Assembly (NCBI RefSeq): GCF_016859285.1
Contig: NC_053416.1
Coordinates: 16,324,501-16,388,500, forward strand
Reading direction: 5' to 3'
DNA: 64,000 nucleotides
Origin: Xiphias gladius
Taxonomy: Eukaryota > Chordata > Actinopteri > Istiophoriformes > Xiphiidae
Shown: positions 14,004-45,176 of the stretch, piece after piece
How positions within the stretch are numbered: position 1 is the stretch's first letter
Layout: the number at the start of each line of letters is the position of its first letter
The notes under the pieces: model-generated
What the model was told of the DNA's origin: nothing
What the model saw: the letters and a program-made list of their open reading frames with translations, nothing else
Databases searched by the model: none
Program-made: the position numbers and the translations under genes

Positions 14004-14503
14004 NNNNNNNNNNNNNNNNNNNNNNNNNNNNNNNNNNNNNNNNNNNNNNNNNNNNNNNNNNNNNNNNNNNNNNNNNNNNNNNNNNNNNNNNNNNNNNNNN
14101 NNNNNNNNNNNNNNNNNNNNNNNNNNNNNNNNNNNNNNNNNNNNNNNNNNNNNNNNNNNNNNNNNNNNNNNNNNNNNNNNNNNNNNNNNNNNNNNNNNNN
14201 NNNNNNNNNNNNNNNNNNNNNNNNNNNNNNNNNNNNNNNNNNNNNNNNNNNNNNNNNNNNNNNNNNNNNNNNNNNNNNNNNNNNNNNNNNNNNNNNNNNN
14301 NNNNNNNNNNNNNNNNNNNNNNNNNNNNNNNNNNNNNNNNNNNNNNNNNNNNNNNNNNNNNNNNNNNNNNNNNNNNNNNNNNNNNNNNNNNNNNNNNNNN
14401 NNNNNNNNNNNNNNNNNNNNNNNNNNNNNNNNNNNNNNNNNNNNNNNNNNNNNNNNNNNNNNNNNNNNNNNNNNNNNNNNNNNNNNNNNNNNNNNNNNNN
14501 NNN
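14004..14503. other. Assembly gap (500 N)
   Basis: Exactly 500 N, the same length as the second gap, so this is probably a placeholder of unknown true size. It removes the end of the phldb2 PH domain and the 3' exons of the first HIPK-like kinase copy, which converge on each other here. Confidence 0.98.
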
Positions 14504-16683
14504 TCCTTGGGGTCTACAGGAACAAAACAGGCGAGTCAGAAACTTCTTCCTTACTGTCTAATTGGGCCATAAAAAACTGTGAACAACTGAACAAGGTTAA
14601 AATACCTTCATCCACCATCTTGGGTTGTCCCAGTGCTGGTTCGCCGTAAAAAACTTGTGGGTGTAGTCCCCAGCACTGAGGAGGTGGTCAGCTGGCTGGC
14701 CCAGAACGTCTACAATGCCTTTCATCTGGAGAGAGAATATAAAGAATCACATCAGCCGACATCCTACATCAAAACCCCTTTGCTGGGTTTGGATATGTGT
14801 CTGGGGCAGAATATAACAGTCTTTGCATTTAAATCTAGACACATTTGGTTACTTACCGACTGGTACTCGCAGTTTATCGCAAACGGGTGTTCGGCGAGGT
14901 ACAAGAACCCGAGCAGGCAGCCAAGACTCCACATGTCTATGGCCTCGGACACGGGAAGGCCCAGGATGACTTCAGGCGCCCTGTGCGTAGAATCACGAGA
15001 ATCACAAGAGCTATTAAGTACTTTGTCAAATTCAGCATGCGTACTGAAGATTGAAACAACCTCTGCTGGATCATTTACAGCATACACACAACTGCAAACA
15101 TGTTAAAAGATGAGCTTTGCAGATTGAACCTACCTGTAACCCAGAGGCTGAATTGACATCCCACGTGCCTCTTCTCGGGTAGCGAAGGAAAGGCCAAAAT
15201 CAATGAGTTTGACTCTGAAGGGCTCAGTGTCGTGGTTCGCCAGCATTACGTTGTCCGGCTTCAGGTCTGAGTGAACGACGCCTATACCCTTCAGTGCGTC
15301 AAAGGCCGTCAGCAACTGCAGAGACAAAGGACACAATGTAGATGGTTAAAGATACCGTTGACCAGGCTGCAGGCTTAAACAGATCAAGAAGTAAGAGTTA
15401 TGCTACTTCAGTATGTAACTTCTTTCTCAACGGTCTGAGTATATTGTCATCTCATGTCGATGATCGATCAGAGCCACATAGTCTTTACCTGGTGCGTTAT
15501 CGGCCGTATCTCACAGAGAGACAGTGGCTTCCAGTCTCGTTCTTCGAGCAGCTGATAAAGACATCTGTCAAGCATTTCGAAAACCAGACAGGTATGTCCT
15601 TTGTGGTAAAACTTTTCGAAGAACCGAACCACATTCTTCTTGACTGGGTCAAGAACGCTCAGTATTTCGAGCATTTTGATCTGTGGAGAAAATAGTCAAA
15701 TTTACATAGGTAAATTGTAAGTGACATAGCATGGTATCAGCAGTTCATTTAATAAACAAAATGTAGTCAAGAAAATGTGAAAAAAACCTAATCAACAAAA
15801 AGACTTAAATAAACTACCTCTCTTTCAGCGGTCTCCTCAGTATGCAGGATTTTGAGGGCCACGTCCTGCGATGTGATTAAATTCACACCCTTGGCAACTT
15901 TGGCAAAGCACCCTTCTCCACCAAAGTCCGTAATGAGGTAGCTACTTGTGATGCTGCAGAGTATGTCGTTCTTTAGCACCTCAGAGCTCTCATATTTCTT
16001 CTCTTCAACTGTGACGGCAAACAGAGAAGTAGTACATTGGGAGAGAAGGAGAACATGTGAAGATCAACACATGGAGTCAGCGGGGCTCGTTCAGTCAACA
16101 CCACACAAATGTAGCTGAAGCATTCATTATGCTCATGTAAATAAACATTTCATTATCATTCTATGACCACATGAAGAAGAATATTATGTCAGGTACTGAA
16201 AATGGCATAATGTCCATTTCAATGATTGGTATTCCCAAAGAAGGAGAAGAGCAAAATACACTGAATGAGGGAAAATCTGATCAACACTGGTCTTCAGCAT
16301 TCAGATCATTTTATTAAGTAGAAGAAGCAATACCACGATGTAAAAATACCCAATTACAAGTACAATTCTTGCCTTGAAAATGTTACGTAGTAGGTATGTG
16401 TTATCAGAACAATGTACTTGAAGTATCTAAAGTTAAAGCACTTGTTCAAACTCGTAACCTGCTAAGTAAGTAATATTTCCAACTGTCAAATGAATTTAAT
16501 GGATTCGACATATAAAGCAGAATCAAATTTAGATGCTTATAGTGCAAGCCTCCTAAGTACTGTGCTTGAGTAAATATACTTAGTTACTCCTTATCTTTGT
16601 GTTCGTGTGTGTGTGTGTGTTGAGTTTCCCTTACCAGTTGTACCTGTTGACCAACAGCTGGCTACATGAGTACGTGAAGACAT
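14504..16683 (-). CDS. HIPK-like protein kinase, copy 1, 3' part lost in gap
   Basis: A homeodomain-interacting-protein-kinase-like (CMGC, Ser/Thr or dual-specificity) gene. Exons, 5' to 3' on the minus strand: 16635-16683 (start ATG, 16 codons), 15818-16008, 15489-15680, 15134-15315, 14857-14980, 14606-14725, and 14504-14513 running into the gap. All junctions are GT-AG and in frame. Visible motifs: glycine loop GGEGCFAKV, VALKIL lysine, VVHSDLKPDN catalytic loop, LIDFG, YRAPE and the HIPK-like block GLPVSEAIDMWSLGC. Predicted coding exons are almost identical to copy 2 (offset 11895), with no stop seen in the visible part. The last bases next to the gap differ by one C from copy 2, probably a contig-edge error. 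HIPKs regulate transcription and p53/Wnt/TGF-beta signalling; the function of this fish-type short member is not known to me. Confidence 0.8.
16330..16600. repeat. Old interspersed repeat ('cttgagtaaatatact' type)
   Basis: The stretch contains 'aagtacaattcttgcc' and ends in 'gcttgagtaaatatacttagttactcc', which resembles the common fish repeat whose better copies lie at 36420-37075 and 59309-60110. It is also present in the second duplicate (about 28225-28495). It is diverged, so the call is tentative. Confidence 0.4.
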
Positions 16684-17161
16684 TTTGCCGCAACAAATCT
16701 TTCTCACTTGTTCGATGTAACTTCTTCAACTAACTCTGGTCTGTAAGTGTTTTCAGCTGAAGGAGAACTGACCAGTTCTAAACATCAAAATTATGACTCA
16801 TCAGAATTATGATGTCGTGACATTCTACGCTAAGATTCTATTAAACTCTTTTATCAGAGAAATGAGGGACAATCACTTGATTCAAAGACGAAATGTTAAT
16901 CTGTGATTTATGCAGTTGATCATTTGCTATCTAGTACATATTTTAAGTATAGGTTTTTGCCATGGTTACCTGTGACCTGTGTTTACTTGTTTAGAGCAGA
17001 CTGTAATAGTTCACAAATACACAAACACAAGCACACATACTTCTTTCCCAAGTATGTGAGACATGTAACCGTAACCCCAACCTAAGCCTGTTGTGAGGAC
17101 ACTCATTGACATAATACCCTCCCTAGCCCCTTAACCTAGGCTTAACCATCACAACTAAATG

Positions 17162-17216
17162 CCTAACCCTAACCTAAACCTAAACCTAAACCTAATTCTA
17201 ACCCCAACCCCAAAAC
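17162..17216 (+). repeat. Degenerate interstitial telomere-like array
   Basis: A short run of CCTAA-type units (cctaaccctaacctaaacc, then several cctaaa units, then accccaac units) resembles the vertebrate telomere repeat TTAGGG in reverse complement. It is degenerate and only ~50 bp. The same array is at 29073-29127 in the second duplicate. Confidence 0.7.
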
Positions 17217-18763
17217 CAAGTCAACTAGTCGGTATTTGAATAATAAAATATCTGGCCTTTTATGTACGTTTTTTTGCTATATTGCCTTTTTTCTTTGGAC
17301 ATAAACTTGCCTTATTTTGAAATGTTCTACACTGATGTATGTTTACCTCAAATACAAATGATAGATACAGTAAATAGAAGTACGTTTTACGATTGTCCCT
17401 CTGAAGGATAATGAAAAGGCAGGGTAAAAGTGCAGATACTGAGAGAGAGATATTAAAGTGAGATTTGAGGACCCCCACCCATTACAATCCCACGCTACGC
17501 TGCCGGAATCTTTTATCACCCCTTTGGAACCCCGTGCAAAATTTCGTAGATGTGCCATTGCTCATTCAACATTCATCAAGCTGTAGCTTGTTTAATGAAG
17601 TGAGTATGGACCAACCAGCCAGAGCATTAGGTCATTCCAGTGCAATCACTCTGCACTGATGACCCCTGCTGGTGACAAAACATAATGAAATGCTTTAGTG
17701 TAGGGAACACGCAGGTGATACTGTACATACATCATCACTGCTGCACAACATGGCCTCCTCTTATCAGGCCAGGAGCCTCTACTATAGATAGAGGGAGCTA
17801 GTCGCACAGCGGTAGGTATGAAACAAAGTACCGTTGCCGTCGGGGAAAATGTTCTACTTTAATGAGTAGAATATTTGTCAACAATTACAAATAAGTCATG
17901 ATAATAAAACATAAAAAAGTGCCTATAATAGTCTCTCCTTCGCGGATTAAGTTTACATATGTGAAGAAAAGCACGAATCGTGGCTCGCTGGAATGAAAGT
18001 GATACAAAGAGAGATGTATCTAGTTTAAAGGAATACTAAAGGTGGACATTCAGCCCTGCTTTAAATAAGCAGACAAGAGCAGCTTATGCTGGTCGTCTGG
18101 CAGCAGCAATCAAAATACTTGAGTTAAAATTACATTGGAATAATAGTGGCAATATAGAGATAATAAATCTGAGTTAACGTAAAAATGTGCATTCCCTCAA
18201 CTACAAACCATCTTATATGGGTAAAAATCACCAGGAAGTTGTGACCCACTGATATTCAAAAGAAATAAATTTCAGCCTGACTAAGATATAGAAATACTGA
18301 GAAGGTGGAGTCAAGTCATAGAGGGAAGGAAGGATAAGAAACAGAGGTGGACCTACAGTATAAAATTTGGTTTTTAAAATGTGGGATGAGTAAATTACAG
18401 AAGGCTACAGTTTATGGAAAGCTGTTTGACAGATATGCATCCGTTATAGAGAAGCAGCATCAGTGTGTGTCGCAGTGTGGAGGCGTAGCAGATGTTGAGT
18501 TTCCAATCATTTAAAAAATTCCCTGATAAAGTTTTGACTGAATAAAAGCTAAACATAACCGGAAGAGTGTGAGACAAGCAGACATTTTGTATAAGGAAGG
18601 AGATAGTGGGAATATGTAACAGCTACATTGTTTCTAGATTTACTGATGGGATGAGGTGATACATGTGTGGGAGGGAGAAAGACAAATGGAAGGAGAAAAG
18701 CAGAAGACAAACAGATGTCAACAGTATTCACGGTGCACGTGTGGACGATGCCACAAGCTAAAA

Positions 18764-18935
18764 AGTAAATTACATGCATCTTTAAACACGCTCATCCATA
18801 TATACGGTAAGTTTTGGTTAGATGTGACACAGTACCCGATGCTCGAGGAGTCTCTGCTTCTCAGCCTGGGCCTCTCGGAGTAAACGCTCCATCTCCATCT
18901 TGGCCATATCGGACGTACCAGCACTGATGGAAAAC
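18764..18935 (-). pseudogene. Inverted fragment of a phldb2 coiled-coil exon (copy 1)
   Basis: On the minus strand this matches phldb2 13064-13236: the acceptor 'ttttccatcag', the whole exon coding ...MAK..MERLLREAQAEK..., and ~70 bases of the following intron. Relative to the parent exon it has a 3-base in-frame deletion (MAKIEEMERLL becomes MAKMEMERLL) and a few substitutions. The exon frame stays open. It is therefore a piece of phldb2 copied in inverted orientation about 5.7 kb downstream. It lies upstream of the HIPK-like kinase on the same strand. No other phldb2 exon was found around it. Confidence 0.85.
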
Positions 18936-19102
18936 AGTAACCATTTCTTGAGTGATGTGAATGCACGGACGCTTCTGGACTGTTATTTTTTATGCTGGAC
19001 CAGGCCTCTTTACGAAGTCGAACTTGTCCTCCCAGTTGAATCTGACAAAAATCCATAACAAAAATAATCAGATTAGATTGTACATATGCATACAAAAGTC
19101 AG

Positions 19103-19182
19103 AAACACTTGTAGTAGCCTACAAGTGTTTCTTGTAGGGCACTCTAGTACCCCTACTACACTTGTTACAAGTGTAGTAGGGG
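19103..19182. repeat. Two adjacent perfect hairpins sharing the 'acacttg' motif
   Basis: Hairpin 1 is 19103-19113 paired with 19120-19130 (aaacacttgta / tacaagtgttt). Hairpin 2 is 19150-19164 paired with 19168-19182 (cccctactacacttg, 3-base loop, caagtgtagtagggg). Both use the same acacttg core. The arrangement is kept in the second duplicate at about 31031-31110. Confidence 0.8.
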
Positions 19183-20204
19183 GTCTTGTTTAGTTCCTGA
19201 TACTGTGTGTTTAGTTGTTTAAGTTGTGTAGCTATGCTTGTAGTGGCAATGTGTATGTGTATGAATATGTATACATATATTGTAAACAGGGCAAATATTG
19301 TACCTCATCTTCTTTTGGAGATACAGATGGCTCCATCGCATTCTCACTGCCAGACTCTGCAACTATATAGAGCATAATGTAAAGATACTCCACAGCTACA
19401 CCCTGCCTAAATCCACCCACTTGTATCAGGGCCTATACTTACTTGAGCAGCTCTCAAGTGATCACAATGATTAATGACAAATATGCTCGGAAAAGGAACA
19501 GTCAGACACAAGGATTTAACTTAATTGTTGCCTGCTGTGTTCCTGTCATTTGCACTACTGAACAACGCAATATAAGGGGCGTAACATCCAATCAGAAGTG
19601 TGTTTGGAGGTAACAGCTTACAAGAAAGCTACAGCTACACCAACATCCCTAGTCCAAATTAGAAATATTGCATCAGATAATGTATTGTTCATAATGACCA
19701 AGGCCATATTTTACAATCACTACAAACATCTCTCAAAAAAGATGTGTGCTCTCCTCTGTCTCTGTACTGCAGCCATCTCAACCCCCAACAGGCTACTCTT
19801 AGCCTATCAAGAACCTGGGGGTGATATTTTTGCTGCACTTATAAGGTCTTCTTTGGACTCGGGGATACAGGATCTTTGACAGTTAGAGAGAGCACAAGCA
19901 TATGACAAATATGAGAGATGATGGAAAACACGCCAACAAAGATTATGCATGGCAAACATTGTTTTAAGATCACCGCTGAAACACTCCAACAAGACTCACA
20001 GGCTTTCCCAAACTCCTATCCAGAATGTGCTGAAATTTGAATTTGCTATATCTGTAGCTGCTGTTCATTGAATTTTAATGTTTTGTCTTTATTCCCTGTC
20101 TCAAATGTCAGTTTCTGAACGGCCGACAATTGCGTCATCACAAAACGGTAAATGGACTGCACTTATTTGGTATATCTCTTTTTCTACCTCAACAAACAGG
20201 GGGC

Positions 20205-20420
20205 TTTACAACTGGCCTCTCATTCACCCATTCACACATGGACGGTGACAGAACGGTCACGCGAGGCGCCGGCCTGCGCATTGGAAGCAAGTTAGGGTTC
20301 GCTGTCTTGTGCGACGACACTCTGACATATAGACAGGAGGAGCTGGGACTCGAACCACCGACGCAGAGATTAGTGGGTGACCTGCTTCACTTCCTAAGCA
20401 ACAGCTTCCCGAGACGGCGA
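20205..20420 (-). mobile_element. tRNA-derived SINE (copy 1)
   Basis: Read on the minus strand, the head has a perfect pol III B box, GGTTCGAGTCC (20346-20356). It is preceded by an A-box-like 'ttgcttaggaagtgaagcagg' region (spaced as in a tRNA) and followed by the SINE body with 'ccaatgcgcaggccggcgcc' and 'tgaatgggtgaatgag'. This layout is a familiar fish tRNA-SINE. It sits about 90 bp from the copy-specific breakpoint at ~20511. Confidence 0.7.
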
Positions 20421-21752
20421 CGTTTCCTAATATGGAACATTACTCGTTCACCCCGGAAGTAGTACCAGCATTATTTCCTGTTAACAGGGATGCCGTGTAG
20501 TTTCAGCCAACTGCTCCAAGACCAGATGAGCATTAGTGTGTACTCTTGGGCTATGACAAAAAAGGGGCAGTATCATACTGACAATTGAGGCAATAGCACC
20601 TTTGAGCACGTTCATCATCTTGTGTCCATGTAAAAGTGGAGTTGCTGAACACCCTCACATGAATCAAGTCCCTATAGTAAAGAAAGGGCTCGTACTGCTT
20701 AGCTGAGCAAGTATACATACATTGTGCTGTATAGAAAAATAGTCATGTCTACCAAAGCATATTATGCAAAATAGATCACTGATAATTAGTTGGAAAACTT
20801 TTAGAGAGCAAGGACTATGGATTAGTGCCACTGTGGTGACAGTAAGAGGCTACATTTTATGGGCTTAAAGGAATTAACCGTGAAAAATTGCATTTTTCTT
20901 TCAACGCCATTCTCAGAGTTCAGGGAGAATGAGGGGAAAAAATCTGTCCTCACCACTGCACTTTGCTGTTGATGTGGAGTTCAGTGTCTTCGGCAGATGT
21001 TGCTACAACTCTATGTTTAGAGCTCGTAGAGTTTTATTTTCAGCCCCAACTGCGGCTCCGACCTAAAACAGAAGGAAATATGTCATGACTAACTGACATT
21101 ATAAGAAACAATAAAAACTATGTGTGTGAAATATATGAGGTGAAGTTAGCTACTGTAGCTACTTATAGTGGACACAGGTAGCAGTGCACCTACACACACT
21201 TTGTCAATATTCAGAAATCACTGAAAGACCTCATCTGGATGGTATGTGGTACTTATGTCACCTAAACAAGTAGCACCCTCTAACTTTGCAATTTTGGCAT
21301 TCAATGTACAAAATATCATGTCACACGATGAACTGAAGAGTGTAAAACAACCCCCCCACCACCATCATCGTCGTCGTCGTCGTCATCTTCAGAGAACATA
21401 TCTGAAAGGGTCTTTTCTCTGGTTTTGGGCTGAGTGGAGACTATTTAGAAAATGTTATTTACACTGAATAAGTATTATCAACTCGTAATCGTTACCTTCG
21501 GCGCATTAGCGGTGCACGTGACATGATGTTAGCCTTTGATTGGATGTTTCCTACCGCAATGATGCTTTGGACTCGTAGTTTTCCGTACCCTCCCTAAGCT
21601 TTTATGAACTGCACTTATTCTTTTATATTAATGATTATTGCTATTTAACATCGGAAATGTCAAGGTATACAATTCTGCCTCACAAATTTTGTCTGTTGAC
21701 CTTTATGGCATTGTACAAAAAGGTGATTATGTGATTTGGTCCGCCTCATTTA

Positions 21753-22597
21753 CAGGGCCAAGAAAAAGAGAGTAAACCCTTTTGAATCCCCTACATTTAC
21801 ACATAACTCATCCATGAAATGTGGTGTGATCTTCATCAAAGTCACTGTAATAGACAAATACACTCTAGGTCAACGAATTGCACTCAAATCATTGTTTCAT
21901 GAATTGGCATATTTAATAAATAACCTCAATGTTAAAAATCCAAAAAACAAAATTGTAAGTGAACCCCCTCACAAATGACCTCTAAAAATGCTACTAGATG
22001 TCACATTTTCCCATTAATGAGTGGAATTTGTAGTTAGTGGTTAGTTGTGACTTGTTCTGTATAAAACACATGAAAAATATTTGTTACTGAAACGCATTGC
22101 TTCACAAGCTGATGTGAACCATCCCTTGTTCACATGCACTTTCAGAGTACTACAGATGAAGCAAGATGGCAGCAAATGTTTAAAAGTGTGGAAGAGAATG
22201 CTTGGGTTACAGTTAAGGTTTCAGGGTAGCCGTCAGTCATCTGATGCTTAATAGAAGTTGGGAGAAGTAACAAGAAAATGCCCCTAAGCACAGTGAAAAA
22301 TGGACTACAAAATGGCTTAGGCATAAGAAAAGTCATGTTTCAGAATGGTTGAGGTCAATCCTGGCTTCAGTTCAGTTGAGATTCTGTGACATGAACTGAA
22401 GAGAGCCATTCACGAAAGACATTCCTGAAACAATCATATAATTAAACTGTTTTGTACGGGGAAATGGTCTAAAATTCCTCCCGGCCAATGTCTAGATACC
22501 ATCAACACGTGCAGGAGGCATTTGGTTGATGTCACTGCTATGAAATAAGGCTTAACTAGTTACTAAAACCAAGGGTTCACTTTCTTTTTCCACCCTG
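21753..22597 (+). mobile_element. Decayed Tc1/mariner-like DNA transposon
   Basis: Terminal inverted repeats: the left end begins cagggccaagaaaaagagag and the reverse complement of the right end begins cagggtggaaaaagaaagtg. A TA precedes the left end. The interior contains phrases such as 'gagccattcacgaaagacat' and 'ggtctaaaattcctcc' that I recognise from a widespread teleost element of this type. No long ORF remains, so it is a fossil copy of ~845 bp. Confidence 0.65.
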
Positions 22598-23574
22598 ACT
22601 TTGAATGTTCAAGCAAATCATCCAATAAACACACCAAAACATGCATTTTTTTCATGTTACTATTTCAGGCTGATGTAGCTTGTCCATTATTATAACTTTA
22701 TGCAATATCAGACGTCATTTTATTTTATTTTATACATTTTTATGACTAAATTATGCAAAATACAGGGATATCCAAGGGGTTCATGTACCGATGGGTTCAG
22801 GCTAAATAAGAGAAACACCTCCTGTGTAACACAATACAGTGCAGATGGAAATTGTTTTGTAACCGTTGCCCTTCACTGATGACTACAGAGAAGAACACGG
22901 TACCCCTGGATCAGGTTCACACACTGCAGATGTTGAGGGGAGAGGCGATGATCAGGTGGGCTCCTCTACCAACCACACCTGAAGGGTCTCTTATAAAATA
23001 GGGTCGATGGTCTAGCAAGGCTCATTTCAGGCTTATTTTGGGGAAATTCTGTTTCATAAAGCTGGTAGTCTGACCTTAGACAGCCATTTTATGGGTCTCC
23101 AGAGATGTTAGATTGGGTTCAAGTCAGGGCTTCTTAGAAAAGGCTAATCTTCTTTTCTTTGTATAAAATACAAAATTGGCAAGGTCCTATTTGATGTTTA
23201 ATAGTCGTTTATAGCATTTTACATCATACACATTTATTGAATTTGCAGCACTTCCTATACAAAGAAGAAAAACAAAATCACACCCTAGATTTGAACTCAG
23301 CATGACATTACTACAAGCAGAGTGCTGCAAAAAACTATGCAAACAAAGGCATTTGTCAACACCAAGTTTATTTCTTGAATCTGAGATTAGAGCACAGGGG
23401 TTGGCAGTGACATGTTCAGACACTCTTTTGGATTTGTGTAAATCAGATATTTTGTTGGTAATTGCTTAAATGTTTTAGCTTTCATATCATGTGATATGTT
23501 TTTCTCTGTTAACATTGCAGTGATGGCATTATATTTTCCTTTTCTTTGCTGTGAATTGTTATCTGTGCTGGATT

Positions 23575-23805
23575 TGTGCTTTTTCATTTAGTTGCATAAT
23601 AATTCTGCGCACTAATAGTTGCCTAATAATGGTGTACATATAGGTATTCTCTTAAGAAAGCCCAAACTTCACTTTTACTACTTAAATGTTCAGGTTTGAG
23701 GGTTTGTTAACATTTTGGATTGACCAAGAGCAACGTCGTTGTACAATAACAAAATGAATCCTCAAAAATACAACCTGCCTAATAATTGTGCACGCAGTGT
23801 AGTAT
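23575..23805 (-). mobile_element. Terminal part of a 'CACTGCGTGC...' DNA element
   Basis: On the minus strand the end reads cactgcgtgcacaattatta, followed by ggcaggttgtatttttgagg. A second copy of the 'cctaataat.gtgc' motif lies inside near 23610-23640. Termini of this type belong to a common fish DNA transposon family. Its left boundary is uncertain and no transposase ORF is present. Confidence 0.5.
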
Positions 23806-23962
23806 CCAGTCGTCATGGTATTGAATGCTCGATATTACGAATTAAGTGAACTGATGTGTGGATGCACTTTGGATCAAACGGCCACAACTGAATATTGAAA
23901 TAAGGCTTTTTGTTTAATATTTGATTTGATTTGATTTGTAAGTCAGTCAGTCACCCCACTTT

Positions 23963-24490
23963 CTGTTCTTTTTATAATACTGTCAAGAGGTGAGTCTTCT
24001 CACATTTTCACTCAAACCTCGACTTTAAACAAGTAAATAATTGATTCAAATGTGTGTGTACATTTATGTATGGCATTATTATAAATTGGCTGTAATATTT
24101 ATACTTTCTATCCATCAGTTATCTATTATCTATCTGTGTTGTAATGCATAAAAACAATGGGATACTAAGCTATAGCAATTCATAAAGTTCTTTGTTGTGG
24201 ACGTGTGGACTGTGTACCAGGGGGAGCTCAAAAGTGATCAAGAAACATACTGGACAAGCAATTAAATGTACTTAAAATAACAATGTCAAACATCTTCAGT
24301 GAGAAATGTATAGATGTCACTAACCCACTAGATTGTCAGTGTCTTGCATTAAATGAGACGATTTGACAAAATGATGTTAAAGAAAAGGTATCAGAGTTAC
24401 TAGGAAATACAGATTCATCTTCTACAGACACATCTGAAAGTAACCATTTTAAGGTATTTCATGTAGAATTTTCAAGAATTGAAAATCGTG
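23963..24490 (+). repeat. Three-copy block, member A
   Basis: The block begins 'ttctttttataatactgtcaagag|gtgagtcttctcac' (about 23968) and runs past 24436. Member B is at 32450-32922, up to the second gap. Member C, more diverged and inverted, is in two parts at 33423-33780 and 35160-35400. The edge resembles a splice donor (AAGAG|GTGAGT), also kept in C. It could be a repeat element or part of a duplicated gene segment. Confidence 0.75.
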
Positions 24491-24619
24491 TTAATTTGCT
24501 GTAAATATTGTAAAGAAATCAGACCAACGACGAGTCGATCAACATCAAATTAATAGGCAACTATGTGAGCATTTGTCATTTTTGTTGTTGTTGAATAGTA
24601 TTAAAAATGTATATCTTTG

Positions 24620-24790
24620 CATTTTGGATTGTTGGCTAAACAAAATAAACATTTGAAAATGTCAACTTGACCTCAGAAACTTACAATGGCCATTTCCTCT
24701 ATTTCAGACATTTTACTGACCAAACAACTAATCAGTTATTTTGGATGATCAACAGCCATTTTATCTTTTAAGCAGCGTTTCAGCATCTGT
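24620..24790 (+). repeat. Fragment of abundant teleost MITE-like repeat
   Basis: Contains 'ttggctaaacaaaataaac', 'cattttactgaccaaacaac' and 'taatcagtta', matching the repeat seen at the start of the window and at 59575-59880. Confidence 0.45.
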
Positions 24791-24856
24791 GAAATGACTG
24801 GAATAAATAAACAATCACGGTGTCATCTCCAAAACACACACAGGAAGGAATTCAAG

Positions 24857-25110
24857 TGAACTTCTTGTTTATTGACATCAGGTCAAGAATTCAAAGCTGC
24901 TTTACAACAATTACAACTACTCCTTACAATATGATTTCCAGAGACCCAACATTCCCAGAGTTTTTCCTTGCGACAGTGGCGAGGAAAAACTCCCTTTTAA
25001 TGGGAAGAAACCTCGAGCGGAACCTGGCTCATGGTGTGTGGCCATCTGCCTCTACCGGATGTGTTGAGAAGGGGGGGTGGTAGAGAAACCTTCCCTCAAC
25101 AGAGGAGAAG
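24857..25110 (+). repeat. Widespread fish interspersed repeat ('gtggcgaggaaaaactccc' type)
   Basis: The block with 'gacagtggcgaggaaaaact' and 'gaagaaacctcgagcgg' followed by 'aacctggctcat' and 'ggccatctgcctctaccgg' is a very common teleost repeat, which I take to be a LINE 3' end (from memory). It lies just downstream of the kinase copy 2 stop codon. Confidence 0.6.
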
Positions 25111-25308
25111 GTCTAGGACACCACTTATCCCCCACCTACAATGCTCTCCTTTCCTCCCTATCCAGGACATTTTACACCTATTCACACTTGACTTCCTCCA
25201 AAATCTCCAACGACTGTCAAATGTTGAATGTCAAATTTATACACCCATCAGCCACAACAGTAGAACCAGTTATCGGGTTTTAATGTTGAATGTGACATTC
25301 AACATTTC

Positions 25309-25314
25309 TTTATT
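25309..25314 (-). promoter_or_regulatory. AATAAA polyadenylation signal overlapping the kinase stop codon
   Basis: On the minus strand the reading ends AAG AAA TGA-style at 25314-25316, and AATAAA starts in the last base of the TGA. A perfect 11-bp-arm hairpin follows immediately (25282-25306: aatgttgaatg / cattcaacatt). If this signal is used, the 3' UTR would be only a few tens of bases. Confidence 0.55.
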
Positions 25315-28300
25315 CATTTTTTTTTCATTTTGAACAAGGTCCTTATTGCTCTGCCAAAGAATTTCTTGATCCTCTTCAATGGACTCTCCTTAACTCTGGC
25401 AGGTGGACCCTCATCAGGTGACCCGTCTTTGGCTGATGTCTCCTCAGCTGGACTGCTTGGACATTGGCTAACAGCTAGTTCCTGTTCAGCTGAGCCAGCA
25501 GCGTCTGTTTTTATATCAGCTTCCTGTCCCTCAGATGAGTTAGGCGTGTTTTTAATGCCGCCGTCACAGGAGCGAATAACAGCTGAGCCTGCATCAGTAG
25601 GAGGAGGTGTGGCTGAAGGCTCTTCACCTCTGGGCTCTTCCTGAGCCTCACCATCAGCTGGACTGGCTTGCCCTCGGCTAACAGCTAGTTCCTCTACAGC
25701 TGAGCCGGCAGCGTCTGTTTCTGCAGCAGCTTCCAGTCCCTCAGATGAGTGAGGCGTGTTTTTAATGCCGTCACAGGAACGAATGACGGCTGAGCCTGCA
25801 TCATTAGGAGGAGGTGTGGCTGAAGGCTCTTCAACTCTGGGCTCTTCCTCAGCCTCATTGTCTGGAGATAGGTCTTCGTCCAAGTCATCCATCGGTAAGA
25901 CCGCCATTTTCTCCAAACAATCCTCCACACTGAATAAAACATGACAATGAATCAATGGATCACTTGGTCAGTAAACAAACCTCCCCTTTAATCCAATCGT
26001 GTATCTATTCAACCCTACTGAAACCAAAACACAGTCACTTACTACAAGCTGGTCTCTATATCGTCCATCAGATGAGCCATTGTGGCAAAGGGGTGCTCGA
26101 GAGCCTTCCCCGGAGTGATCCTCTTCTCTGGGTCAGTGTTTAGAAGGCTCTTCAGGAGGCTGACGAATGCTCTTTGATCCACTAGCTCGATGGATTCCTG
26201 TGTCTCTGGGTCATGCTGGATTCAAAACAAAGTAGGTGAGAGTTCAGTTGAACTGCTTCCTGTCTCTCAGCGACAGATCAAATTGGTATGAATTCATTCT
26301 TTAGTCATGAAATGGACCCCTTACTGTCATCAGGTCATCCAGACTTCTAAGAGCGCTCTTCCATGTTTCGGGCTCAATTCCAGTGCCAAGCTGGTATTCC
26401 CTTGGGGTCTACAGGAACAAAACAGGCGAGTCAGAAACTTCTTCCTTACTGTCTAATTGGGCCATAAAAAACTGTGAACAACTGAACAAGGTTAAAATAC
26501 CTTCATCCACCATCTTGGGTTGTCCCAGTGCTGGTTCGCCGTAAAAAACTTGTGGGTGTAGTCCCCAGCACTGAGGAGGTGGTCAGCTGGCTGGCCCAGA
26601 ACGTCTACAATGCCTTTCATCTGGAGAGAGAATATAAAGAATCACATCAGCCGACATCCTACATCAAAACCCCTTTGCTGGGTTTGGATATGTGTCTGGG
26701 GCAGAATATAACAGTCTTTGCATTTAAATCTAGACACGTTTGGTTACTTACCGACTGGTACTCGCAGTTTATCGCAAACGGGTGTTCGGCGAGGTACAAG
26801 AACCCGAGCAGGCAGCCAAGACTCCACATGTCTATGGCCTCGGACACGGGAAGGCCCAGGATGACTTCAGGCGCCCTGTGCGTAGAATCACGAGAATCGC
26901 AAGAGCTATTAAGTACTTTGTCAAATTCAGCATGCGTACTGAAGATTGAAACAACCTCTGCTGGATCATTTACAGCATACACACAACTGCAAACATGTTA
27001 AAAGATGAGCTTTGCAGATTGAACCTACCTGTAACCCAGAGGCTGAATTGACATCCCACGTGCCTCTTCTCGGGTAGCGAAGGAAAGGCCAAAATCAATG
27101 AGTTTGACTCTGAAGGGCTCAGTGTCGTGGTTCGCCAGCATTACGTTGTCCGGCTTCAGGTCTGAGTGAACGACGCCTATACCCTTCAGTGCGTCAAAGG
27201 CCGTCAGCAACTGCAGAGACAAAGGACACAATGTAGATGGTTAAAGATACCGTTGACCAGGCTGCAGGCTTAAACAGATCAAGAAGTAAGAGTTATGCTA
27301 CTTCAGTATGTAACTTCTTTCTCAACAGTCTGAGTATATTGTCATCTCATGTCGATGATTGATCAGAGCCACATAGTCTTTACCTGGTGCGTTATCGGCC
27401 GTATCTCACAGAGAGACAGTGGCTTCCAGTCTCGTTCTTCGAGCAGCTGATAAAGACATCTGTCAAGCATTTCGAAAACCAGACAGGTATGTCCTTTGTG
27501 GTAAAACTTTTCGAAGAACCGAACCACATTCTTCTTGACTGGGTCAAGAACGCTCAGTATTTCGAGCATTTTGATCTGTGGAGAAAATAGTCAAATTTAC
27601 ATAGGTAAATTGTAAGTGACATAGCATGGTATCAGCAGTTCATTTAATAAACAAAATGTAGTCAAGAAAATGTGAAAAAAACCTAATCAACAAAAAGACT
27701 TAAATAAACTACCTCTCTTTCAGCGGTCTCCTCAGTATGCAGGATTTTGAGGGCCACGTCCTGCGATGTGATTAAATTCACACCCTTGGCAACTTTGGCA
27801 AAGCACCCTTCTCCACCAAAGTCCGTAATGAGGTAGCTACTTGTGATGCTGCAGAGTATGTCGTTCTTTAGCACCTCAGAGCTCTCATATTTCTTCTCTT
27901 CAACTGTGACGGCAAACAGAGAAGTAGTACATTGGGAGAGAAGGAGAACATGTGAAGATCAACACATGGAGTCAGCGGGGCTCATTCAGTCAACACCACA
28001 CAAATGTAGCTGAAGCATTCATTATGCTCATGTAAATAAACATTTCATTATCATTCTATGACCACATGAAGAAGAATATTATGTCAGGTACTGAAAATGG
28101 CATAATGTCCATTTCAATGATTGGTATTCCCAAAGAAGGAGAAGAGCAAAATACGCTGAATGAGGGAAAATCTGATCAACACTGGTCTTCAGCATTCAGA
28201 TCATTTTATTAAGTAGAAGAAGCAATACCACGATGTAAAAATACCCAATTACAAGTACAATTCTTGCCTTGAAAATGTTACGTAGTAGGTATGTGTTATC

Positions 28301-28594
28301 AGAACAATGTACTTGAAGTATCTAAAGTTAAAGCACTTGTTCAAACTCGTAACCTGCTAAGTAAGTAATATTTCCAACTGTCAAATGAATTTAATGGATT
28401 CGACATATAAAGCAGAATCAAATTTAGATGCTTATAGTGCAAGCCTCCTAAGTACTGTGCTTGAGTAAATATACTTAGTTACTCCTTATCTTTGTGTTCG
28501 TGTGTGTGTGTGTGTGTGTGTGTTTGTGTGCTGAGTTTCCCTTACCAGTTGTACCTGTTGACCAACAGCTGGCTACATGAGTACGTGAAGACAT
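25314..28594 (-). CDS. HIPK-like protein kinase, copy 2, complete
   Basis: Nine exons join in frame with GT-AG junctions: 28546-28594, 27713-27903, 27384-27575, 27029-27210, 26752-26875, 26501-26620, 26325-26408, 26043-26215, 25314-25929; 1731 nt, 576 aa. Kinase domain is about residues 40-362: glycine loop GGEGCFAKV (46-54), VALKIL with Lys69, HSDLKPDN (159-166, Asp161; Ser where most kinases have Arg), IDFG (182-185), YRAPE (204-208), then GLPVSEAIDMWSLGC and a C-lobe ending TMAHLMDD, all HIPK-like. The HIPK activation-loop Tyr appears to be Ser198. The tail (372-576) is not HIPK-like: two ~67-residue acidic/Ser/Pro repeats (399-465, 466-535) and a basic end, SPLKRIKKFFGRAIRTLF then KMKKK. 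The protein is much shorter than HIPK1-3 (>1100 aa) and lacks their long C-terminal regions. Substrate unknown; a nuclear or membrane role is inference. Confidence 0.85.
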
Positions 28595-29072
28595 TTTGCC
28601 GCAACAAATCTTTCTCACTTGTTCGATGTAACTTCTTCAACTAACTCTGGTCTGTAAGTGTTTTCAGCTGAAGGAGAACTGACCAGTTCTAAACATCAAA
28701 ATTATGACTCATCAGAATTATGATGTCGTGACATTCTACGCTAAGATTCTATTAAACTCTTTTATCAGAGAAATGAGGGACAATCACTTGATTCAAAGAC
28801 GAAATGTTAATCTGTGATTTATGCAGTTGATCATTTGCTATCTAGTACATATTTTAAGTATAGGATTTTGCCATGGTTACCTGTGACCTGTGTTTACTTG
28901 TTTAGAGCAGACTGTAATAGTTCACAAATACACAAACACAAGCACACATACTTCTTTCCCAAGTATGTGAGACATGTAACCGTAACCCCAACCTAAGCCT
29001 GTTGTGAGGACACTCATTGACATAATACCCTCCCTAGCCCCTTAACCTAGGCTTAACCATCACAACTAAATG

Positions 29073-29127
29073 CCTAACCCTAACCTAAACCTAAACCTAA
29101 ACCTAATTCTAACCCCAACCCCAAAAC
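29073..29127 (+). repeat. Degenerate telomere-like array, copy 2
   Basis: Same sequence as 17162-17216 in the first duplicate. Confidence 0.7.
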
Positions 29128-30691
29128 CAAGTCAACTAGTCGGTATTTGAATAATAAAATATCTGGCCTTTTATGTACGTTTTTTGCTATATTGCCTTTT
29201 TTCTTTGGACATAAACTTGCCTTATTTTGAAGTGTTCTACACTGATGTATGTTTACCTCAAATACAAATGATAGATACAGTAAATAGAAGTATGTTTTAC
29301 GATTGTCCCTCTGAAGGATAATGAAAAGGCAGGGTAAAAGTGCAGATACTGAGAGAGAGATATTAAAGTGAGATTTGAGGACCCCCACCCATTACAATCC
29401 CACGCTACGCTGCCGAATCTTTTATCACCCCTTTGGAACCCCGTGCAAAATTTCGTAGATGTGCCATTGCTCATTCAACATTCATCAAGCTGTAGCTTGT
29501 TTAATGAAGTGAGTATGGACCAACCAGCCAGAGCATTAGGTCATTCCAGTGCAATCACTCTGCACTGATGACCCCTGCTGGTGACAAAACATAATGAAAT
29601 GCTTTAGTGTAGGGAACACGCAGGTGATACTGTACATACATCATCACTGCTGCACAACATGGCCTCCTCTTATCAGGCCAGGAGCCTCTACTATAGATAG
29701 AGGGAGCTAGTCGCACAGCGGTAGGTATGAAACAAAGTACCGTTGCCATCGGGGAAAATGTTCTACTTTAATGAGTAGAATATTTGTCAACAATTACAAA
29801 TAATTCATGATAATAAAACATAAAAAAGTGCCTATAATAGTCTCTCCTTCGCGGATTAAGTTTGCATATGTGAAGAAAAGCACGAATCTGCGTGATGAAT
29901 GATGAAAAAAAGAAGAGAGTAGAGAGTTAAAAGAATAATAAAAGGTAAAGACATTCAGCCCTTTTTTAAATAAAAAGACAAAGAGCAGCTTATGCTGTGT
30001 CTGGCAGCAGCAATCAAAAAAAATTGAAAAAAAAAAAAAAAAAATAATACACACTAATTACATTGGAATAAATATAAATATATATAGATAATAAATCTGA
30101 GTTTTAAAAAAAATGTGCATTCCCTCAACTACAAACCATCTTATATGGGTAAAAATCACCAGGAAGTTGTGACCCACTGATATTCAAAAGAAATAAATTT
30201 CAGCCTGACTAAGATATAGAAATACTGAGAAGGTGGAGTCAAGTCATAGAGGGAAGGAAGGATAAGAAACAGAGGTGGACCTACAGTATAAAATTTGGTT
30301 TTTAAAATGTGGGATGAGTAAATTACAGAAGGCTACAGTTTATGGAAAGCTGTTTGACAGATATGCATCCGTTATAGAGAAGCAGCATCAGTGTGTGTCG
30401 CAGTGTGGAGGCGTAGCAGATGTTGAGTTTCCAATCATTTAAAAAATTCCCTGATAAAGTTTTGACTGAATAAAAGCTAAACATAACCGGAAGAGTGTGA
30501 GACAAGCAGACATTTTGTATAAGGAAGGAGATAGTGGGAATATGTAACAGCTACATTGTTTCTAGATTTACTGATGGGATGAGGTGATACATGTGTGGGA
30601 GGGAGAAAGACAAATGGAAGGAGAAAAGCAGAAGACAAACAGATGTCAACAGTATTCACGGTGCACGTGTGGACGATGCCACAAGCTAAAA

Positions 30692-30863
30692 AGTAAATTA
30701 CATGCATCTTTAAACACGCTCCTCCATATATACGGTAAGTTTTGGTTAGATGTGACACAGTACCCGATGCTCGAGGAGTCTCTGCTTCTCAGCCTGGGCC
30801 TCTCGGAGTAAACGCTCCATCTCCATCTTGGCCATATCGGACGTACCAGCACTGATGGAAAAC
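30692..30863 (-). pseudogene. Inverted fragment of a phldb2 coiled-coil exon (copy 2)
   Basis: Second copy of the fragment at 18764-18935, carried by the segmental duplication. It has the same 3-base deletion relative to phldb2 13075-13165, so the capture predates the tandem duplication. Confidence 0.85.
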
Positions 30864-32132
30864 AGTAACCATTTCTTGAGTGATGTGAATGCACGGACGC
30901 TTCTGGACTGTTATTTTTTATGCTGGACCAGGCCTCTTTACGAAGTCGAACTTGTCCTCCCAGTTGAATCTGACAAAAATCCATAACAAAAATAATCAGA
31001 TTAGATTGTACATATGCATACAAAAGTCAGAAACACTTGTAGTAGCCTACAAGTGTTTCTTGTAGGGCACTCTAGTACCCCTACTACACTTGTTACAAGT
31101 GTAGTAGGGGGTCTTGTTTAGTTCCTGATACTGTGTGTTTAGTTGTTTAAGTTGTGTAGCTATGCTTGTAGTGGCAATGTGTATGTGTATGAATATGTAT
31201 ACATATATTGTAAACAGGGCAAATATTGTACCTCATCTTCTTTTGGAGATACAGATGGCTCCATCGCATTCTCACTGCCAGACTCTGCAACTATATAGAG
31301 CATAATGTAAAGATACTCCACAGCTACACCCTGCCTAAATCCACCCACTTGTATCAGGGCCTATACTTACTTGAGCAGCTCTCAAGTGATCACAATGATT
31401 AATGACAAATATGCTCGGAAAAGGAACAGTCAGACACAAGGATTTAACTTAATTGTTGCCTGCTGTGTTCCTGTCATTTGCACTACTGAACAACGCAATA
31501 TAAGGGGCGTAACATCCAATCAGAAGTGTGTTTGGAGGTAACAGCTTACAAGAAAGCTACAGCTACACCAACATCCCTAGTCCAAATTAGAAATATTGCA
31601 TCAGATAATGTATTGTTCATAATGACCAAGGCCATATTTTACAATCACTACAAACATCTCTCAAAAAGGATGTGTACTCTCCTCTGTCTCTGTACTGCAG
31701 CCATCTCAACCCCCAACAGGCTACTCTTAGCCTATCAAGAACCTGGGGGTGATATTTTTGCTGCACTTATAAGGTCTTCTTTGGACTCGGGGATACAGGA
31801 TCTTTGACAGTTAGAGAGAGCACAAGCATATGACAAATATGAGAGATGATGGAAAACACGCCAACAAAGATTATGCATGGCAAACATTGTTTTAAGATCA
31901 CCGCTGAAACACTCCAACAAGACTCACAGGCTTTCCCAAACTCCTATCCAGAATGTGCTGAAATTTGAATTTGCTATATCTGTAGCTGCTGTTCATTGAA
32001 TTTTAATGTTTTGTCTTTATTCCCTGTCTCAAATGTCAGTTTCTGAACGGCCGACAATTGCGTCATCACAAAACGGTAAATGGACTGCACTTATTTGGTA
32101 TATCTCTTTTTCTACCTCAACAAACAGGGGGC

Positions 32133-32348
32133 TTTACAACTGGCCTCTCATTCACCCATTCACACATGGACGGTGACAGAACGGTCACGCGAGGCGCCGG
32201 CCTGCGCATTGGAAGCAAGTTAGGGTTTCGGTGTCTTGTGCGACGACACTCTGACATATAGACAGGAGGAGCTGGGACTCGAACCACCGACGCAGAGATT
32301 AGTGGGTGACCTGCTTCACTTCCTAAGCAACAGCTTCCCGAGACGGCG
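32133..32348 (-). mobile_element. tRNA-derived SINE (copy 2)
   Basis: Duplicate of the SINE at 20205-20420, with the B box GGTTCGAGTCC at 32275-32285 on the minus strand. The deletion junction of copy 2 lies about 90 bp to its right. Confidence 0.7.
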
Positions 32349-32449
32349 ACGTTTCCTAATATGGAACATTACTCGTTCACCCCGGAAGTAGTACCAGCAT
32401 TATTTCCTGTTAACAGGGATGCCGTGTAGTTTCAGCCAGTAGTTTCAGT

Positions 32450-32922
32450 AGTTTCTTTTTATAATACTGTCAAGAGGTGAGTCTTCTCACATTTTCACTC
32501 AAACCTCGACTTTAAACAAGTAAATAATTGATTCAAATGTGTGTGTACATTTATGTATGGCATTATTATAAATTGGCTGTAATATTTATACTTTCTATCC
32601 ATCAGTTATCTATTATCTATCTGTGTTGTAATGCATAAAAACAATGGGATACTAAGCTATAACAGTTCATAAAGTTCTTTGTTGTGGACGTGTGGACTGT
32701 GTACCAGGGGGAGCTCAAAAGTGATCAAGAAACATACTGGACAAGCAATTAAATGTACTTAAAATAACAACGTCAAACATCTTCAGTGAGAAATGTATAG
32801 ATGTCACTAACCCACTAGATTGTCAGTGTCTTGCATTAAATGAGACGATTTGACAAAATGATGTCAAAGAAAAGGTATCAGAGTTACTAGGAAATACAGA
32901 TTCATCTTCTACAGACACATCT
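32450..32922 (+). repeat. Three-copy block, member B
   Basis: Nearly identical to 23963-24436 (offset about 8487). It is cut by the N gap at 32923. Confidence 0.85.
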
Positions 32923-33422
32923 NNNNNNNNNNNNNNNNNNNNNNNNNNNNNNNNNNNNNNNNNNNNNNNNNNNNNNNNNNNNNNNNNNNNNNNNNNNNNN
33001 NNNNNNNNNNNNNNNNNNNNNNNNNNNNNNNNNNNNNNNNNNNNNNNNNNNNNNNNNNNNNNNNNNNNNNNNNNNNNNNNNNNNNNNNNNNNNNNNNNNN
33101 NNNNNNNNNNNNNNNNNNNNNNNNNNNNNNNNNNNNNNNNNNNNNNNNNNNNNNNNNNNNNNNNNNNNNNNNNNNNNNNNNNNNNNNNNNNNNNNNNNNN
33201 NNNNNNNNNNNNNNNNNNNNNNNNNNNNNNNNNNNNNNNNNNNNNNNNNNNNNNNNNNNNNNNNNNNNNNNNNNNNNNNNNNNNNNNNNNNNNNNNNNNN
33301 NNNNNNNNNNNNNNNNNNNNNNNNNNNNNNNNNNNNNNNNNNNNNNNNNNNNNNNNNNNNNNNNNNNNNNNNNNNNNNNNNNNNNNNNNNNNNNNNNNNN
33401 NNNNNNNNNNNNNNNNNNNNNN
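32923..33422. other. Assembly gap (500 N)
   Basis: 500 N, identical in length to the first gap. It falls where member B of the three-copy block meets the inverted member C, so the assembler probably broke at an inverted repeat. Confidence 0.98.
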
Positions 33423-35400
33423 CACAATTCCTTATTACTTTGAAAATACTACATAAAATACCTTAAAATGGTTACTTTCAGATATGTCCCTTTGTTTTGG
33501 ATGACTTCAGTCTGTCAATTAGGCTGTCCCTTCGTTCAAAATATTTCAACAATTATTCAATGGAGTTCCATTGAATTTTCTCTGAAATTCATGGCCTTAC
33601 AGAAGATGAATCTGTATTTCCTGACATCTAGAAATTTTCTCTCATTTTGTTTCCCAAGTACTGAAGATGTTTTAAATTGTTGTTATAAGCAGGTCAATTT
33701 TATTGCTTGTCTCTTGCAAGGTGTCCAGCATGTGTCTTCATCACTCTTGAGCTCCCCCAATGTCTTTATTTAAATATTTTCCATTCATATATTGTTTTCA
33801 TTTAATCTTTTAAATAATAATATTGCCGAAATGTATTTACAAAGTAAATCAAATCAAATTTTCTAAACTTGTAACAAAAAAAAATAGAAATTAAGCAAAA
33901 AAGACAAGAATAAATTTAGAAGGATAATCAGTTATAAAATTAATACTTAACATATAAAAATGCATTTTTTTTTGTTTTCTTATTAAAATAAATGAGAAAT
34001 GGGGAAAATGAGATGAACCTGTTTTGAGTGTGAATGATGATGGTGGTCTAGCAGACCTATAAAACATAAACTGCGCATACAGGAACAAAAGAAAAATCAT
34101 ACCTAAAATGTCAGTTAAAGTTAAAGGGTAGTTTCCTAAATATAGTCGGTATTTACTACTGATAGATATCTGGTTTAGATTTAGCAGTGTTTTTTAAAAT
34201 ATTCAGAAATTGTCCCTATTTTTTTTCCATATAAAGGAAAACAAATGACTCTTCCCCAAAACAGCCCTGCAATCTTTTTCTGCTCTGTTTCGAACGAAGA
34301 AAGTTTCTTTTGTAACAGCACTGTCCTTTTTATCATATTTATTCAACTCCATCTTCTTTTTCATTTAAAGGTTAATCTAGTAAAAATGAAAGTACCAAAG
34401 TATCATCTTGAAATCTTAGCATAGCAAGTGTAATTTATCGGCATCAGTGGCTGCATTTGTGACATGAGGTTTTCTTTATGATACTGTTGTTATATTTCCA
34501 TGAAATAAAAAAAATGTGTAACAGAAAAAATGAAGATGTAAATACGATATTGGTTTTCATTGGGTTCTACCTTTAAGTGCAGTATTAAAGTTGTCAACAG
34601 ACTTGTCTCTTTGGGTTCTTCTGGGCCTTTCCTCTTATACAGTACAAAGATAACTTGATTAGCTGGATAGGTTCGTTGATTAACTTGCACTTGCACACAG
34701 GGCCATAGCTACCATTGAGGACATCAGCGACATGTCGTTGGTAAAATTTCTTGGGGCTCAGGGGGTTCAGTGGCATGAGGAAAATTTAAGAGGAGTTTAA
34801 ATTCTTTGATTACACAGATATTATGCATGTGTCTTATAAGGCAGACTTTGATATCTTTTACACCAAATATCTTAAAAATGACCGTTTTATGGCAAACAAT
34901 AAATAAATAAAACTGAAATTGAAGGGATTTCTCCACCAGAGTTACATACCTAGCACTGTAGAAAAAGTTTTGAAATAAGATTTTTTTTACATCTGATTCT
35001 TCTTAAATAACTTTGAAAATTTTGCGGGGTTTGGTTGGTGGATAGTTATATTTCTTAGGTCAGTAGGGTCTGTTTGGGAAATGCAGACTCATGGCTACTG
35101 CATTACTAAAATGTTACTGTTTGTAATGTTAATACTAATGTTATTTCCTTTGGTACACAGAGTCCACATGTCCACAACTAAGAACTGTATGAGTTGTTAT
35201 AGCTTAGTATCCCATTGTTTTTATGCATTACAACACAGATAGATAATAGATAACTGATGGATAGAAAGTATAAATATTACAGCCAATTTATAATAATGCC
35301 ATACATAAATGTACACACACATTTGAATCAATTATTTATTTGTTTAAAGGTGAGGTTTGAGTGAGAATATGAGAAGACTCACCTTTTGACAGTATTACCG
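33423..35400 (-). repeat. Three-copy block, member C (inverted, diverged, interrupted)
   Basis: The reverse complement of 33423-33780 matches about 24230-24490, and that of 35160-35400 matches about 23970-24220, with many differences. The ~1.4 kb in between (33780-35160) has no counterpart in members A and B and looks like an insertion. I recognised no coding sequence in it. Confidence 0.7.
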
Positions 35401-43676: not shown

Positions 43677-45176
43677 CTTCTCTCTGTTTCCCCCTTTCTC
43701 TGTATCCTCCAGTCACTTGCTGCAGTTATTCCCCAGCCAGTGGAGTGAGCATTTATATCCAGACCTTATCTTTATCTCCGTCTGTAGCCTTGCTTTAAGT
43801 CTGTTGCTCTCAGTGCGTTTCTTTATCAGTTGCCTGTATCCCTCCCACCGTCTATCTTTCCCATCCAACCCTTTCTCCTCTATTTCTCCCTTGAAAGCCC
43901 CTCCCCTTTGCCTCGTTTTTGCCTGGCTGCTCTCCCTGGTTGCCATAGCAACTGAGGATCTAAGCAGCTTTCGTCAGCAATGCAGAGCCAGGGGCTGTCA
44001 CCAACCCACCCTGAACGCAGCTTTCTCTTCCTCTCTCTCTTCCTCTCTGTCTGATGACTCTGTTTACATAAATAGCAAAGACAAATGCTCCATTAACAAG
44101 GCCAAATTTTGAATTCTGAATGATCTGGCTTCATATAAACATCTCGAACCATAATTTTATAAATAGTTATTGCCAGACAGTGTCACAATTTATTACATTC
44201 AAGTTTGGGAGGTATTTAGCATATTGACCTACATCTCAATATGTACAGAATTTTCCTCTTTCAATGCATATTACTTCAAAAAGCATCATTTTAACACCTA
44301 TTACAGAACATGTAAAAAAAAAAAACAAAAACATAATGCTTACTGTGAAGCGTAAATGTTAATGTTTCTTTCATAAAATCAAATCTTGTGGCAGGACATG
44401 ACCTTTTGAACATCTTAACAGAGTCAACAACACTCCTGAAGACAATCAAGCCTTTGAGAATGATTACATAATCATAAATGAATGAATAGATTTCATTTTA
44501 AGGAGAAGAAGAAAAACGAGTATGGTAGTGTTAATATAATTCCTCTTATTGTCTGCTATGGTCAATATTATTATGTGTACATTTTAATTTGAGCCTTTTT
44601 ATAATTAAGGCATTTAATAACCGACACGTGATTTTTTTTTTTTTGAAAAGGTGACTAATGTCAAATGCAATCCTCTAATCAATACAGTGCTCTAGTCATT
44701 AGTAACTTTTATTAGTTTTCATTCATTTGACTTTTTCCGTGGCTTGAAGTGACAAAAGGTTTTTAGTTCTTTGCCAGTCTGTAGGAATGAATACCAGTAT
44801 ACAGATTACTTGAGAAGTTAGTCTAAATTGAGTTAAATCTTAAGTATCAAGTGCTATCAGTTTAATTAATATTTTGCTTGCTTTGCACAGGTATGAATAA
44901 ATGACTTTAATTAGTTACTTTAAAACATGTTTAACCATAAATATCTACTTTTGTGTGAGTGTTTTAAAAAGGTTAAAGTTATACATTTCATACATTAAAC
45001 ACATTACAACTAAAAACAAATAATGAGTTATTTTATATCTTCTGGCCTGACCCATAATTGCCAATATAATTCTTATCTGTGTGGTTTCACTGAATTCAAT
45101 TATATTGTGGTGTATTTTTTTTATAAACTAGTCATTTGAGTCAAAGAAAGGAAATGGGTTGTTCTTTATTACCAGG
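43677..45176. other. 5' side of the AMER-family gene and intergenic DNA
   Basis: Pyrimidine-rich sequence just upstream of the start codon (43680-44060) may hold the 5' UTR and promoter of the minus-strand gene. No TATA box or other signal could be supported. From 44100 to 45176 the sequence is AT-rich with nothing recognised. Confidence 0.45.

Follow-up and report, generated by a model that had tools for sequence, protein, structure and literature searches.

What kind of kinase is encoded at this locus of the swordfish Xiphias gladius, and where in the cell might its unfamiliar C-terminal tail place it? The window, meaning the whole 64,000-nucleotide stretch of DNA that was analysed (C17:16324501-16388500 of an assembly of 690.8 Mb in 1298 contigs), was said in a preliminary description, made from the letters alone, to contain a short HIPK-like kinase gene with a tail unlike those of known HIPKs. 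HIPKs and DYRKs are known to mature by tyrosine autophosphorylation. Judged by its sequence, the window gene is full-length and open and belongs to a large branch of HIPK-like kinases; it is of HIPK descent, keeps its catalytic residues, has lost the activation-loop tyrosine, and ends in a predicted helix that is more conserved than the spacer before it.

The gene and its second copy

Nine exons on the minus strand, running from 28594 to 25314, join into a single open frame, so that the HIPK-like kinase gene of 576 aa first proposed proves to be real. AG acceptors precede all exons but the first and GT donors follow all but the last, and the lengths of exons 1-9 are 49, 191, 192, 182, 124, 120, 84, 173 and 616 nt. 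The features of the gene and of its second copy are these:

28546..28594, minus: exon 1, with the ATG at 28594 and an exact duplicate at 16635
27713..27903, minus: exon 2, with the glycine loop starting at residue 47 and catalytic Lys69
27384..27575, minus: exon 3, residues 81-144, with HTCLVFEML
27029..27210, minus: exon 4, HSDLKPDN (Asp161), DFG (Asp183) and the activation loop, in which Ser198 replaces the HIPK tyrosine
26752..26875, minus: exon 5, APE and IDMWSLGC
26501..26620, minus: exon 6
26325..26408, minus: exon 7, with LDDLM
26043..26215, minus: exon 8, with TMAHLMDD
25314..25929, minus: exon 9, tail residues 373-576 with two acidic repeats and a basic C-terminal helix, including the stop
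25444..25857, minus: tandem repeat within exon 9, unit of about 210 bp, 88.9% identical
14504..16683, minus: copy A, with exons 1-6 the same as in the described gene, then the first bases of exon 7; the N gap 14004-14503 takes the remainder

Exon 9 holds an open frame of 217 codons, a length that is not decisive in itself, since 40 Markov windows gave a longest run of 222 codons (median 149). The tail exon is accepted as genuine because paralogues carry the same exon 9, and an artefact confined to one gene is ruled out on the same grounds. The donor region of exon 8 (26038-26045) contains a tandem GTAGTAAG, and read-through into intron 8 would meet an immediate stop, making a 371-aa kinase without the tail possible. 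Scans of the whole window for tRNA genes and Rfam families gave no matches, and no relatives were confirmed in sets of viral contigs and genome contigs.

Copy A, which the preliminary description does not mention, and the described gene (copy B) are identical over the 858 nt of exons 1-6, and the likeness extends into their surroundings, 14505-20509 matching 26400-32438 at 98.2%; the flank of copy B continues to an N gap at 32923-33422. It is a distinct if somewhat doubtful possibility that the assembler joined two haplotypes of a single locus and that the copies are not tandem paralogues. They differ by 16 substitutions over about 5.9 kb outside one low-complexity stretch, with none in the 858 exonic nt, and 500-N gaps bound the stretch that carries them. 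Yet the gap-free stretch 14504-32922 contains both copies, a 3.46-kb indel separates them, three further near copies sit on C615 (99%), C736 (96%) and C770 (96%), and several tandem places with the tail occur on C15, C23 and C828, all of which fits tandem paralogues better. The 3.46 kb in question (20510-23965) is present in copy A and missing from copy B, which has at 32439-32452 a 14-bp filler resembling its own flank, the kind of trace that a deletion with templated repair leaves. Near the second gap, 33440-33488 and 35151-35397 are inverted copies of parts of 23975-24475, likely a dispersed repeat.

Kinase domain and descent

The HIPK character of the domain, already recognised in the preliminary description, is upheld by a phmmer search of the PDB, in which the nearest solved structure is HIPK2 (E 4.8e-81, 276 bits), followed by HIPK3 (3.1e-75, 257 bits) and, well behind, DYRK1A (about 5e-41, 144 bits). 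Domain identities are 146/340 (42.9%) for HIPK2, 139/340 for HIPK3 and 107/310 (34.5%) for DYRK1A, and Pfam places a protein kinase domain in the 576-aa product at 5.5e-42. The HIPK2 match spans the exon 8/9 junction and continues slightly beyond the domain, stopping at residue 378. While the window gene has its kinase family and the intron layout of its domain in common with HIPK1-3, it differs from them in the loss of the tyrosine, in having about 25 residues before the matched domain, and in its 204-aa tail of acidic repeats and basic helix.

The catalytic set is intact, with Lys69, Glu80, Asp161 (HSDLKPDN), Asp183 (DFG) and APE all in place. The activation loop reads GMSIQPLGYR against STYLQSRYYR in HIPK2, which puts Ser198 at the place of the tyrosine. 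The tyrosine is present in human HIPK2, HIPK3 and DYRK1A, and two ordinary fish HIPKs, L059 and L060, keep it within an unchanged STYLQSRYYR. Residue 198 was sought in 27 loci (L009-L028, including both window copies, L071, L061, L063, L066 and three ordinary HIPKs) and could be read in 23 of the 24 HIPK-like ones, L012 being the exception; none of the 23 has tyrosine, the residue being S, R, T, I, N, Q or A. Within the window family, 17 copies out of 20 have Lys69, Asp161 and DFG all in place; in L016 Lys69 is replaced by Arg. Two copies on C828, L026 and L028, read HAN for HSD, with Asn at 161, and have an open tail frame; they are possible pseudokinases.

PMC4353451 reports that the activation-loop tyrosine is conserved in HIPK1-4, that mutants without it have lowered activity, and that such mutants of HIPK1 and HIPK2 shift to the cytoplasm. 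It also describes HIPK4 as being without the HIPK1-3 regions outside the catalytic domain and as keeping the tyrosine (Y175). Compared by that description, HIPK4 resembles the window gene, which likewise seems to be without these regions, but differs in keeping the tyrosine; according to a review, it occurs only in mammals (PMC10952393).

A comparison of the human HIPK2 domain with the swordfish genome gave high-identity matches that were grouped by hand into five ordinary HIPK loci:

C8:10190785: 99%, residues 1-185 in one piece
C1:16459248: 88%, residues 1-187 in one piece
C18:25154103-25157647: 64-91%
C8:5744703-5745834: 74-95%, perhaps with weaker pieces at C8:5726325-5727620
C21:21192583-21195359: 69-95%

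The last of these bears on descent. The six domain introns of the window gene lie at HIPK2-domain residues 59, 123, 183, 225, 265 and 298, and the C21 locus matches in pieces covering residues 1-61, 60-125, 123-185, 177-227, 209-266, 264-296 and 293-350. All six intron positions are within about 3 residues of piece ends, which are ends of matches and not verified splice sites. This common layout makes descent of the branch from a HIPK gene with introns most likely.

Two trees, one of 15 rows and one of 14, have on their ordinary side human HIPK2 and HIPK3 together with two ordinary swordfish HIPKs; both separate ten HIPK-like rows, including the window gene, from the ordinary HIPKs with 100/100 support. 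In the 15-row tree DYRK1A is a long branch and drew a warning of long-branch attraction; the tree rebuilt without it gives the same groups. The HIPK-like genes of an array on C773, of C15:23965390 and of C21:23158300 fall in this clade with the window gene and are like it in tyrosine loss, as read in L061, L063 and L066, but their domain lies mostly in one open frame, unlike that of the nine-exon window gene. The C773 array (L063-L065 and L067-L069, of which L063 is the one read) represents another HIPK-like subfamily, 43-45% identical to HIPK2. A search with the tail gave no match at any of these three sites within about 1.5 kb of flank. One of them, L066 (C21:23158300), encodes its domain in a single open frame and has KNQFKRIRKFFRSGGAIGFHR as its end; by eye this is near the LKRIRKFFGR of the tail family, and it carries the KRIRKFF motif as the window gene does. 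L066 groups with the tail family at 89/92 and 94/95, values under the tool's support star for what is a long branch. This one locus, compared by eye, hints that the basic end may be older than the acidic repeats.

The tail in an expanded branch

The 204-aa product of exon 9 begins with the short segment that matches HIPK2, continues with two acidic repeats and finishes in a C-terminal end of net charge +10. Both the acidic Ser/Pro repeats and the basic amphipathic end noted at the outset are there. The repeats are 69 residues each (399-467 and 468-536), with net charges of -11 and -10 and three S/T-P sites apiece; nine such sites fall within the tail, against two elsewhere in the protein. The end, KESPLKRIKKFFGRAIRTLFKMKKK, has a hydrophobic moment matched by 12 of 20000 shuffles. 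AF2, run on the tail alone as a single sequence, returned a mean pLDDT of 52.6; tail residues 183-203 form the one helix that scores well, with 83 and 90 in its ten-residue blocks and 74 in the last four residues.

The claim that this tail is new stands in part. No Pfam family was found in the 204 residues, and a PDB search gave no matches at E 10, but the tail belongs to a whole branch and not to this gene alone. It was not found at the ordinary HIPKs of this genome, none of its 113 matches falling at their five loci. The homeobox-interaction, PEST, SUMO-interaction and Tyr/His-rich C-terminal regions of HIPK1-3 may be missing from it, Pfam having found nothing in the tail.

The preliminary description had supposed a fish-expanded branch, and the swordfish genome bears the expansion out. 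The DNA of the gene gave at least 53 matches in its own genome, 40 candidates out of 313 having been scored; with the tail protein there were 113 at E up to 0.01. Clustering 74 of the latter, and leaving out 39 within about 1 kb of a clustered match, yields 70 places: 24 on C1-C24 (ten on C15, seven on C23, two on C10 and one each on C1, C5, C6, C11 and C17) and 46 on other contigs, which may include haplotigs. A kinase adjoining the tail was confirmed at the places checked for it, L009-L028 and L071 (C11, with kinase matches upstream of the tail). Lifted onto 20 copies, the exon model reads to the tail stop in seven (L009, L011, L014, L015, L017, L019 and L026), is cut by a gap in L013 and meets frameshifts or early stops in the remaining 12, so that some of the family's members are either dead or poorly assembled. 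L014, L015 and L026 have no ATG at the lifted start and no AG at the lifted exon 2 acceptor.

Expansion of DYRK/HIPK kinases in fish is already known in outline. Of the 40 DYRK-subfamily kinases of fugu, 30 form a separate cluster (PMC3359783), 14 Hipk genes are among the new genes specific to Pleuronectoidei in flatfishes (PMC8618825), the HIPK family is expanded in the yellow goosefish (PMC7729161), and Hipk1 is among the families unique to the marine medaka (PMC7493909); the main text of PMC8110480 does not contain 'hipk'. The fugu, flatfish and goosefish kinases resemble the present branch in being lineage-expanded, and may belong to it, but the accessible parts of these papers describe neither the tail nor the tyrosine loss. 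The open-access PMC literature, so far as accessible, likewise holds no description of either, and publication elsewhere is possible. What is new here, read from the sequences, is the common architecture: a lost tyrosine, an acidic spacer with a variable number of repeats, and a conserved basic helix.

Repeat number, as read from the frames, varies from copy to copy: there is one acidic repeat in, for example, L017, L019 and L055-L057, two in the window gene, L014, L015 and L026, and three in L045 and L046. The paralogous ends retain LKR(I/V)(K/R)KFFGR with few exceptions, such as LKTI in L014. Out of 5000 shuffles, the number matching the hydrophobic moment was 2 for the window gene, 4 for L017 and 39 for L019, and it was 608 for L014, 369 for L015, 132 for L045, 319 for L041, 172 for L054 and 560 for L066; amphipathicity is thus clear in three of the nine ends and moderate in the other six.

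Rates of substitution (NG86) were obtained for nine pairs among the seven readable models. Across these pairs pN/pS is 0.07-0.58 in the kinase, 0.63-1.22 in the acidic part and 0.00-0.82 in the helix end, which is below the acidic part in all nine; in three pairs (L019-L015, L019-L026 and L017-L026) the helix ratio reaches 0.63-0.82. Because some sequences occur in more than one pair and the helix end spans just 36-37 codons, constraint on the helix has here support and not proof. The acidic repeat evolves close to neutrally, and conservation of its sequence is not supported, pN/pS being near 1.

The same figures bear on the view, in our judgement distinctly improbable, that the family arose in a burst of duplication and is now decaying, and that the window gene, tail included, does little. 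The 12 frame-broken models in 20 would suit decay, as would HAN in L026 and L028, Arg at Lys69 in L016, and the divergence of the window gene's two repeats (pN 0.121 and pS 0.108 over 68 codons). Against it, kinase pN/pS is 0.42-0.58 in eight of the nine pairs, with 0.07 for L009 and L011, which are near copies; the catalytic residues stay together in most copies; and of the 12 broken models, 11 map to contigs above C24, which we take to be unplaced and where assembly error is likely.

Possible site of action

We favour, with a probability of about 0.5, a Ser/Thr kinase that works independently of the tyrosine and that its helix brings to acidic membranes. Such a kinase would be active on Ser/Thr without tyrosine autophosphorylation, the basic C-terminal helix would anchor it to negatively charged membranes, and the acidic spacer would serve as a flexible arm that could be phosphorylated at its nine S/T-P sites. 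A counterpoint to a membrane helix is that in six of the nine ends 132-608 of 5000 shuffles reach the observed amphipathicity, and the basic helix could alternatively serve as a nuclear localisation signal, or as a binding site for RNA or protein.

For placement by the helix, a nuclear or nucleolar address ranks second to the membrane and seems to us rather unlikely. It would make the protein nuclear like HIPK1-3, which are mainly so according to PMC4353451, and the ends are strongly basic, with net charges of +10 to +12 in seven of nine and +8 in two. A plain localisation signal, however, needs no hydrophobic residues, and these are retained together with the charge in LKR(I/V)(K/R)KFFGR; moreover HIPK4, which is without the HIPK1-3 tail, is given as cytoplasmic in the same source. 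Anchoring at membranes is our first choice, and the conserved C-terminal end would offer a concrete handle on the site of action of the fish kinase expansion. A large natural branch that has the catalytic residues without the tyrosine would also show whether the autophosphorylation step is dispensable. More speculatively, and with little probability as a whole, the fish might hold an arsenal of HIPK-derived kinases, dozens in number, that no longer depend on tyrosine autophosphorylation and that a conserved helix tethers to membranes; the number of spacer repeats would set reach, and turnover would be fast, as in an immune gene family.

Two other features of the window deserve mention. An exon at 13942-14003, encoding a 21-residue piece, runs into an N gap; a PDB search with the piece was empty. 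Motifs for the rest of a PHLDB PH domain, of which it may be part, were not found in the window, so the scaffold order near this exon is perhaps doubtful. On the minus strand at 39975-43712 lies an open frame of the AMER family (Pfam PF09422, 6.1e-29) with an array of SKDPPAPxQIPVSV-like repeats.
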